NCBI GenBank assembly: GCA_949841045.1
Contig: CATKXS010000011.1
Location: 1-39,752, forward strand
Source: an uncultured Clostridia bacterium
Lineage (GTDB): Bacteria; Bacillota; Clostridia; Christensenellales; UBA1242
Reading direction: 5' to 3'
Length of the DNA stretch: 39,752 nucleotides
Position numbers and translations under genes: made by a program. Below the pieces are notes generated by a model. That model had not been told where the DNA came from. It saw only the letters and a list, made by a program, of their open reading frames with translations, and did not search any database. Shown piece by piece: positions 23,881-25,432 of this stretch (the first letter of the stretch is position 1; each line of letters begins with the position of its first letter).

Positions 23881-23975
23881 TTTCAATATTATATTTATTG
23901 AAGAAATTTAAGAAATTTTAAATTATAGTTGACAATTTTTTAAATATATATTATAATCATCAATGTTTCAAGTTT

Positions 23976-24051
23976 GGACTGCTAGCTCAGTTGGTAGAGC
24001 ATCTGACTCTTAATCAGGGGGTCCGGGGTTCGAGCCCCCGGCAGTCCACCA
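23976..24051 (+). tRNA. tRNA-Lys (CTT)
   Basis: GGACTGCTAGCTCAGTTGGTAGAGCATCTGACTCTTAATCAGGGGGTCCGGGGTTCGAGCCCCCGGCAGTCCACCA; promoter TTGACA/TATAAT upstream. Confidence 0.97.
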
Positions 24052-24057
24052 AAAAAT

Positions 24058-24080
24058 GACGGGAAAGCCCGTCTTTTTTT
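24058..24080 (+). terminator. terminator after tRNA-Lys
   Basis: GACGGGaaagCCCGTCttttttt. Confidence 0.85.
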
Positions 24081-24081
24081 A

Positions 24082-24228
24082 TGCCGGGAGCTAGCAACTG
24101 AAGTTGCTATGGCGTCCGCCATACGAACCCCAGACCAAGTCCGAGTCGGAGCTTTTAAGCTCGGTCATTCGACTTTTCTGTTTCTCCCGAAACAGGTCTC
24201 ATACTACGAGCCCCCGGCAGTCCACCAA
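24082..24228 (+). other. structured element ending in a displaced tRNA-Lys 3' end
   Basis: outer arms TGCCGGG (24082-24088)/CCCGGCA (24213-24219); internal hairpins GCAACTgaAGTTGC, ATGGCgtccGCCAT, AAGTC..GACTT, CTGTTTctcccgAAACAG; 24207-24228 identical to 24031-24052. Confidence 0.75.
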
Positions 24229-24236
24229 CCTAAACT

Positions 24237-24349
24237 CTGTAAGAACACTGAAACAAATTTTCAGGCATCGATTAAATCGCTCCACCAAACCATTTGCTGT
24301 ACGAACACTTAAACGAATGTTCAGACAGCGACTAAGTCGCTCAACCAAA
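24237..24349 (+). repeat. two 53-nt direct repeats (period 60), each with hairpin(s) and a C(C/A)ACCAAA tail
   Basis: 44/53 matches between 24237-24289 and 24297-24349 by eye. Confidence 0.85.
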
Positions 24350-24355
24350 TATATA

Positions 24356-24378
24356 ACGGTGAAAAGCCGTCTTTTTTA
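24356..24378 (+). terminator. second terminator closing the Lys hairpin array
   Basis: ACGGtgaaaaGCCGTctttttta, resembles the 24058 terminator. Confidence 0.75.
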
Positions 24379-24392
24379 TTGTTTTTTAAGTG

Positions 24393-24914
24393 TTAATCTT
24401 TAAAATCCACATATACTTTGCTTTCTTGGGGACCTATGCTATTTTGATATTTGCCGTTATATAATTTGATTTTTCCTAAAGTTTTCCAAAACATGATTTG
24501 TCCTATTTTCATGCCTTTATAAATTCTAAGGGGTTGGACAGCATGAAGTTGAAAAGTTAAGTTGCCTTTAAAACCAATATCTACAAGTTCGGCGGTTATT
24601 TGAACAAATAAACCAAGTCTTCCTGTCGAGCTTCTTCCAGTTAGAGTAGGCACGAAATAGTCGCTCCCCAAAATTTCTTTTGTAAAGCCAAGATAAATTT
24701 TGTTTGGCTTTAAGACAAGCCCTTCGTCTGGAATTTTTATGATTTTTGTTTTAAGTTCTTTTTTGCTGTCAAGAATTTCGTCATCATATACTTTTAAATA
24801 ATCGCCAAGCTCTACGTTATAACTGTTTGGATTTACATTTTTTTCGTTAAATGGTGAGATAGTAATTTTGTTTTTACGTACCTGTTTTTTGATTTCGTTG
24901 CCCGTAAGTATCAT
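24393..24914 (-). CDS. dCTP deaminase/dUTPase-family paralog 1
   Basis: GRSSTGRLGLFVQITAELVDIGFKGNLTFQLHAVQPLRIYKGMKIGQ. Confidence 0.88.
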   Translation of the reverse strand: MILTGNEIKKQVRKNKITISPFNEKNVNPNSYNVELGDYLKVYDDEILDSKKELKTKIIKIPDEGLVLKPNKIYLGFTKEILGSDYFVPTLTGRSSTGRLGLFVQITAELVDIGFKGNLTFQLHAVQPLRIYKGMKIGQIMFWKTLGKIKLYNGKYQNSIGPQESKVYVDFKD

Positions 24915-25432
24915 TTTAACTCCTTATAAAACTTGCTTATTTGTGCCGATTGAAATTGTTTGTATTCGCCATTTTTATATGTGCGAGTCTTTCTGCCTTT
25001 TATCTTCCAAAAGGTGACTTGACCTATCTTCATGAGGGGATAAACTCTAAGTGGCTGAACGACTTTAAGTTCAAGCGTCCATGAATGGAAAGTTCCCACA
25101 TGACCGAGCGGGGCGGTGATTTGAAGAAAAAGTCCAAGTCTGCCCATTGAACTTCGGCCTATAAGTTGTGTCACAAAATTATCGCTTCCGATTTTTTCAT
25201 AGGTGCTGGCGAGATATAATTTGCCAGGCTTTAAAATGTAACCGCTCTCTGGAATGATGATTTTCCTAAACTTTGGTTTTTCTTTTGCGTCTAGGTCAGT
25301 GTCAAATTCAATAAGCTGGTCAGCAAGCCGATAATTATAGCTATTTGGATTTAATAATTCTTCATTAAAAGGCTGGATTTTAATGCGATTTTTACGCACT
25401 TGTTTGATAATTTCTAATTTTGTTAAAATCAT
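24911..25432 (-). CDS. dCTP deaminase/dUTPase-family paralog 2
   Basis: GRSSMGRLGLFLQITAPLGHVGTFHSWTLELKVVQPLRVYPLMKIGQ; overlaps paralog 1 by 4 nt. Confidence 0.88.
   Translation of the reverse strand: MILTKLEIIKQVRKNRIKIQPFNEELLNPNSYNYRLADQLIEFDTDLDAKEKPKFRKIIIPESGYILKPGKLYLASTYEKIGSDNFVTQLIGRSSMGRLGLFLQITAPLGHVGTFHSWTLELKVVQPLRVYPLMKIGQVTFWKIKGRKTRTYKNGEYKQFQSAQISKFYKELK

Follow-up and report, generated by a model that had tools for sequence, protein, structure and literature searches.

The window analysed here is a stretch of 39,752 nucleotides from an uncultured Clostridia bacterium (Christensenellales, UBA1242). On its forward strand it carries an intact tRNA-Lys (CTT) gene at 23976–24051, as judged by ARAGORN and Rfam RF00005, preceded by a sigma-70-like promoter read from the sequence (TTGACA-17-TATAAT, 23929–23957) and followed by a terminator, T1, recognised by sequence and folding (GACGGG/CCCGTC + T7, 24058–24080). 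Behind T1 lies an array of a 147-nt block, termed X (24082–24228), two hairpin units of about 60 nt, termed B (24229–24289 and 24290–24349), and a second terminator, T2 (24356–24377), which on sequence comparison matches T1 over 17 nt at 88%. The last 22 nt of X (24207–24228, CGAGCCCCCGGCAGTCCACCAA) are an exact copy of the tRNA-Lys 3′ end with a start-to-start spacing of 176, as found by repeat comparison. Chance is excluded as the origin of this copy, because exact copies of the tRNA's own 3′ end of at least 15 nt occur downstream of 7 of the 31 tRNAs of the genome, compared with 3 of 926 mismatched tRNA/flank pairs. The original prediction had proposed all of these elements—a closed block of about 147 nt with at least four internal hairpins, a block end identical to the tRNA-Lys 3′ end 176 bp upstream, two further hairpin units, and a second terminator resembling the first—and each of them is present, with five hairpins in the block. 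It had also seen no plausible protein in the array, in agreement with the single listed ORF (24104–24403, 99 codons), which is without a Pfam match. In an Rfam search of the array, only the tRNA reaches its cut-off. The folding that the prediction called for gives a z-score of −4.7 for the 334-nt stretch as RNA against shuffles. Two neighbouring paralogous dCTP-deaminase-like genes follow on the reverse strand (24393–25432), and the one downstream of the array is transcribed toward it.

Anatomy of the array

The X block is closed by an 11-nt inverted repeat, P1, formed by TGCCGGGAGCT (24082–24092), the antisense of the tRNA T3′/acceptor strand, and AGCCCCCGGCA (24209–24219). P1 features compensatory double changes across species in 5 of 8 pairs. 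It is followed by hairpin 1 (AGCAAC/GTTGCT, 24093–24108), defined by folding and alignment, and hairpin 2 (ATGGCG/CGCCAT, 24109–24122), seen in folding and with double changes across species in 4 of 6 pairs. The next element is an antisense copy of the tRNA T5′ strand (CGAACCCCAGAC, 24124–24135, read from the sequence), which forms the helix H3 with the sense copy of T5′ behind it (GTCCGAGTCG, 24139–24148, from sequence and alignment). The core (24149–24198) occupies the T-loop and consists of hairpin 4 (GAGC/GCTC), the motif GGTCATTC—GGCCATTC in most relatives—and hairpin 5 (CTGTTTC-TCCC-GAAACAG), as supported by folding and covariation. The sense T-loop, T3′, acceptor strand, and CCA complete the unit. 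In 5′ to 3′ order, X thus holds the tRNA T-arm twice, once antisense and once sense with a hairpin core in the T-loop. A single strand of X folds into a T-arm helix from whose T-loop the core protrudes; in the alignment and in DNA folding, P1 and H3 pair and the core is looped out. The folding z-score of the 148-nt X block as DNA is −4.0 for the forward and −4.9 for the reverse strand. Between the two tRNA 3′ ends of the window lie the terminator and X alone. The original prediction was correct in that X reuses the T-arm and acceptor strand, but it missed the antisense T-arm, the 5′ copies at other tRNAs, the genome-wide pattern, and the different nature of the B repeat.

The two B units end in CTCCACCAAA and CTCAACCAAA. 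Both lie on the reverse strand and match the covariance model at 74.3 bits (unit 1, also seen in an alignment) and 89.7 bits (unit 2); the consensus on that strand is TGGAGCGACTTAGTCGCTGTGCGAACATTCG...TTTGGTGGAG. Six further units occur elsewhere in the genome and, judging from sequence comparison, the last two units of the array are a dispersed repeat separate from X. B lies directly before start codons at four loci of the own genome (L002, L004, L005, and L006 on contigs C1, C1, C9, and C10; tandem in L002), and its end GGTGGAGG on the opposite strand is the apparent Shine–Dalgarno sequence of four genes. Beside tRNA-Lys and tRNA-Ala, the orientation is reversed and B ends in CCACCA. In G054, a B-like unit lies between X copies. 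A T-box-like leader role was considered because TTTGGTGGAG complements tRNA 3′ ends; it was rejected, since the genes behind B, which include penicillin-binding-protein-like and MarR-like proteins as assigned by eye, are without a link to tRNA charging.

Occurrence in the genus and at other tRNAs

In a DNA search of the genus, many species show the same arrangement 3′ of tRNA-Lys(CTT), and tandem terminator–X repeats are frequent. A strict pattern of the core (GGCCATTC..CTCATA) has matches in 19 of 112 genus genomes, compared with one for the reversed control. It fails to pick up the source genome and no fewer than five further carriers (G004, G011, G023, G043, and G072), and an earlier strict pattern missed units with a short hairpin 4; with these known carriers added, the X core is present in at least 25 of the 112 genomes. 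The upstream tRNA, where it lies on the DNA covered, is tRNA-Lys (CTT or TTT), with the first unit 83–107 bp away. Two tandem X units each are found in G081, L085, G005, and G021, and G054 carries two identical units and a truncated one; in G122 and G069, the end of the site occupied by an X agrees with tRNA-Met. The original prediction had named random debris of an old insertion as the alternative. X is not debris, because its core is kept in this number of genomes, nearly always directly 3′ of tRNA-Lys and often in tandem, and because second instances in related genomes and covariation are both found. Elsewhere in the order, the core pattern has one match in other families (G376), which is about the reversed-pattern background. 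X was also looked for in viral contigs from IMG/VR and in records of phages and was found in none of them, so that the mobility of X is putative.

At tRNA-Lys(CTT), the tRNA-derived parts of X follow the host tRNA. Of 16 units compared, among them 15 at Lys-CTT, 15 have the acceptor end of the host tRNA, with seven acceptor types represented, versus 42 of 240 cross-species pairs. The antisense T5′ strand in relatives likewise follows the tRNA type and reads CGAACCCCGGAC or CGAACCCTG (CCCCGG or CCCTG types). Where the two units of a tandem differ, as in G081 and G005, the one nearer the tRNA agrees with its present sequence and the farther one with an older type. The tracking does not hold everywhere: the Lys-TTT X units of G120, G124, G054, and G010 deviate from their own tRNA in the acceptor portion.

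Partial self-copies flank 10 of 31 tRNAs in the source genome, 9 of 30 in a sister species (G069), and 13 of 30 in another genus (G200); a control for these flank copies at a looser E-value gives 12 of 93, 4 of 90, and 13 of 90, respectively. Exact 3′-end copies of at least 15 nt lie downstream of 7 of 31, 3 of 30, and 5 of 30 tRNAs in these genomes and of 3 of 32 in a genome from another family of the same order (G029), compared with 5 of 3654 mismatched pairs from all four. Exact 5′-end copies lie upstream of 3 of 31, 3 of 30, 2 of 30, and 0 of 32 tRNAs, and the mismatched pairs of the four genomes contain 1 in 3654. Some tRNAs are nested in an exploded self-copy whose 5′ part precedes the gene and whose 3′ part follows it. 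Many of the flank copies feature a common order, namely an antisense arm followed by a sense arm with a core in its loop, and at least three cores recur among them. The X core is found at Lys and Met tRNAs; the Z core (GGGTCCCC..AAAAT..ATTTTT..GGG) at Met, Glu, Leu, and Thr tRNAs; and the W core (AACGCCAAGG..CCTGCGTA..) in the anticodon loop of Asn and Lys tRNAs. A search of the literature outside subscription journals yielded no paper on this general pattern.

Individual loci extend this picture on the 5′ side. At L105 (tRNA-Asn), L104 (tRNA-Lys TTT), L102 (tRNA-Ile), and L177, part of the tRNA is copied upstream, and the copy has a structured insert in its anticodon loop; the insert is the W core or similar, mostly followed by the antisense anticodon arm, and the arrangement is a 5′ mirror image of X. 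In one operon with tRNA-Phe (L090, G122:C26), two tandem 5′-copies lie upstream and two tandem 3′-copies downstream.

Level at which the fold is kept

In a plain MAFFT alignment of 11 X units, RNAalifold predicts 45 pairs, 20 of which carry compensatory double changes. The covariation is taken from this unbiased alignment count, a swap test on hand-parsed helices having been set aside as circular. Of the cells in the alignment, 92% are paired, compared with 29–45% for slid partners, and none of 500 shuffles is as good. The mismatches bear on the level at which this fold is kept, since a functional RNA is expected to tolerate G-U far better than A-C. In the X helices, G-U and A-C mismatches occur in a ratio of 18:26 over two alignments—with cells that are not independent because the sequences are related, and 11:21 when counted by column—versus 51:5 in the tRNA acceptor stems of four related genomes, a difference with p ~ 7e-8. 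A swap of strands does not rescue an RNA reading, because the ratio merely becomes 26:18. The absence of wobble pairs suggests that the fold is kept at the DNA level, and X looks to be maintained either as single-stranded DNA or by palindrome-correcting replication.

These results bear on the other half of the original prediction, which had left the choice between an element reusing the T-arm/acceptor strand and a structured RNA; the first stands and the second loses ground. As an RNA, X would be produced by read-through transcription of the tRNA gene or by transcription of the opposite strand and would act, for example, as an RtT-like processing product or a tRNA decoy. The stable fold and the covariation fit such a role, as does the dCTP deaminase gene transcribed toward the array on the opposite strand. 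However, X is positioned after the strong terminator T1, it has no Rfam match, and its mismatches, with no G-U preference on either strand, argue against an RNA function. A structured RNA is hence a decidedly unlikely explanation.

The closest known counterpart, which also lends this explanation some support, is the RtT RNA of the rttR repeats in the E. coli tyrT operon (Rfam RF00391; Bosl and Kersten 1991, as cited in PMC2965389 and PMC4986893). According to PMC4986893, RtT is an RNA set free from the transcripts of tRNA operons, and a connection with the stringent response has been proposed for it. Like the array, the tyrT operon has direct repeats after a tRNA, 178 bp in E. coli and 176 here, and every repeat finishes with the tRNA 3′ end including CCA. 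Internally, too, the order in E. coli is that of X: an antisense T-arm (GGGGAAGGATGAGAAGCTTCGA) comes first, then a sense T5′ (AAGGTTCGA), a hairpin core, and the 3′-end copy; no description of this order was found in the literature searched. Unlike in E. coli, many tRNA families are concerned here and 5′ copies occur as well, and the core sequences are unlike X. RF00391 has no match at its gathering threshold in the window or in 15 related loci and is absent from the E ≤ 10 list over 23950–24420, and the positive control returned four E. coli matches at 133–138 bits. X is therefore built like RtT, with the same internal order, yet lies outside the RF00391 family.

Mobile DNA and the origin of the units

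Larger integrative elements also target tRNA-Lys and abut its anticodon loop. One family of them (L066, L067, L069, L082, and L095) has a conserved right end, ..AATAAGTTTTATTCAT..C, followed by CTCTTAATC of the tRNA-Lys anticodon loop. In the source genome (L197:10031–11464), a tyrosine integrase adjoins a complete tRNA-Arg with the 5′ part of a different tRNA-Arg upstream; from its sequence, this locus appears to be an integrative element that carried in a replacement tRNA. Conceivably, X and the upstream copies are decayed attL/attR sites of elements that insert in tRNA loops and supply a replacement tRNA or 3′ half. Integrative elements that are real, such as the one with its integrase beside the replaced tRNA-Arg, and element ends that abut CTCTTAATC speak for such attachment-site debris. 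The ends at tRNA-Lys are, however, without antisense arms, and covarying helices and a core kept in at least 25 species-level genomes are not expected from decay, so that this origin is given a low probability, on a par with that of a structured RNA. Tyrosine-integrase elements that target the anticodon loop or T-loop of tRNAs do resemble X in duplicating the tRNA 3′ end at their boundaries and supplying a replacement, but X units are about 176 bp, gene-free, and equipped with conserved folded cores. In the window, no element with an integrase lies between the two tRNA copies.

The second explanation, and the main rival to recombination, needs no enzyme of its own. Tandem duplication of the tRNA 3′ end and terminator would be combined with template switching, which adds inverted copies at tRNA hairpins and keeps the palindromes perfect, and slippage would expand the arrays, all with no selected function. 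Compensatory changes without G-U bias are as expected from palindrome-correcting template switches, T1 and T2 are alike, and tandem arrays are common. In addition, no recombinase correlates with the arrays: among members of the Phage_integrase family, no tRNA-targeting integrase common to the carriers was found, and G069 has nine flanked tRNAs with one detected tyrosine recombinase, probably Xer. Against this, the X, Z, and W cores contain no tRNA sequence, are kept between species, and are common to different tRNAs, for which duplication alone is insufficient. Enzyme-free duplication is held to be somewhat unlikely.

The preferred reading, with a probability of about 0.4, is that X, as one member of a class of such repeats attached to tRNA genes, is a DNA-level fold-back unit at a tRNA arm, similar to an integron attC site, that moves or expands by recombination. 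Speaking for it are the tandem arrays after tRNA-Lys, the agreement with the host tRNA, the covariation, the lack of G-U preference, the self-copies at other tRNAs, and the matching order in the E. coli tyrT repeats. In integrons, the attC single strand folds to rebuild a double-stranded recombination site with looped-out parts, and the array grows beside a fixed site. X may be compared with this because it, too, would be a folded single strand with looped-out parts in a tandem array next to a fixed site. It differs in that X units have no gene cassettes inside and the target would be the tRNA T-arm instead of attI; a by-eye search of X for the GTTRRRY core site of attC saw none. The unit comprises the tRNA 3′ end, the terminator, the antisense T-arm, the sense T5′, the core in the T-loop, and the sense T3′, acceptor, and CCA. 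When single-stranded, it would adopt a hairpin-ended fold that imitates the T-arm and loops out the core, in the way that attC resembles its target, and units would enter, leave, or multiply via recombination at or near the T-loop by a putative recombinase. The tRNA would receive its 3′ end and terminator anew from each incoming unit, and the previous 3′ end, pushed aside, would persist as the downstream copy. In two species (L082 and L095), a 2.2-kb ABC-transporter segment with 99.5% identity starts exactly at the T-loop side of X and runs toward a second tRNA 3′ half, and the adjoining X and tRNA clearly differ between the genomes. This sharp boundary could fit recombination at X; alternatively, it could stem from a shared deletion followed by ordinary exchange. 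Points against recombination are that no candidate enzyme emerged, that no cargo is seen between most X units, and that some Lys-TTT units are mismatched.

REP sequences and BIMEs, small palindromic DNA units in intergenic positions, offer a further comparison. REPs carry GGAG 5′ of a hairpin, as do the B units, which are likewise intergenic. The arms of X copy the neighbouring tRNA, whereas those of REPs do not. PMC2965389 counts rtT-like elements among the BIMEs.

A wider and rather speculative proposal, held to be improbable, is that tRNA-anchored, integron-like systems exist, whose noncoding cassettes end in single-strand folds resembling a tRNA arm and insert by recombination in tRNA loops. 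The tRNA genes would be the fixed attachment sites with repeatedly replaced 3′ ends, and RtT of E. coli would be a remnant of such a system. At the level of observation, the design of the E. coli tyrT repeat, known for decades, is common to units beside about one-third of the tRNA genes in three genomes of an uncultured Clostridia family. If recombination drives X, very small elements edit the 3′ ends of tRNA genes, which would shed new light on the attraction of mobile DNA to tRNA genes and point to a possible source of attC-like sites.
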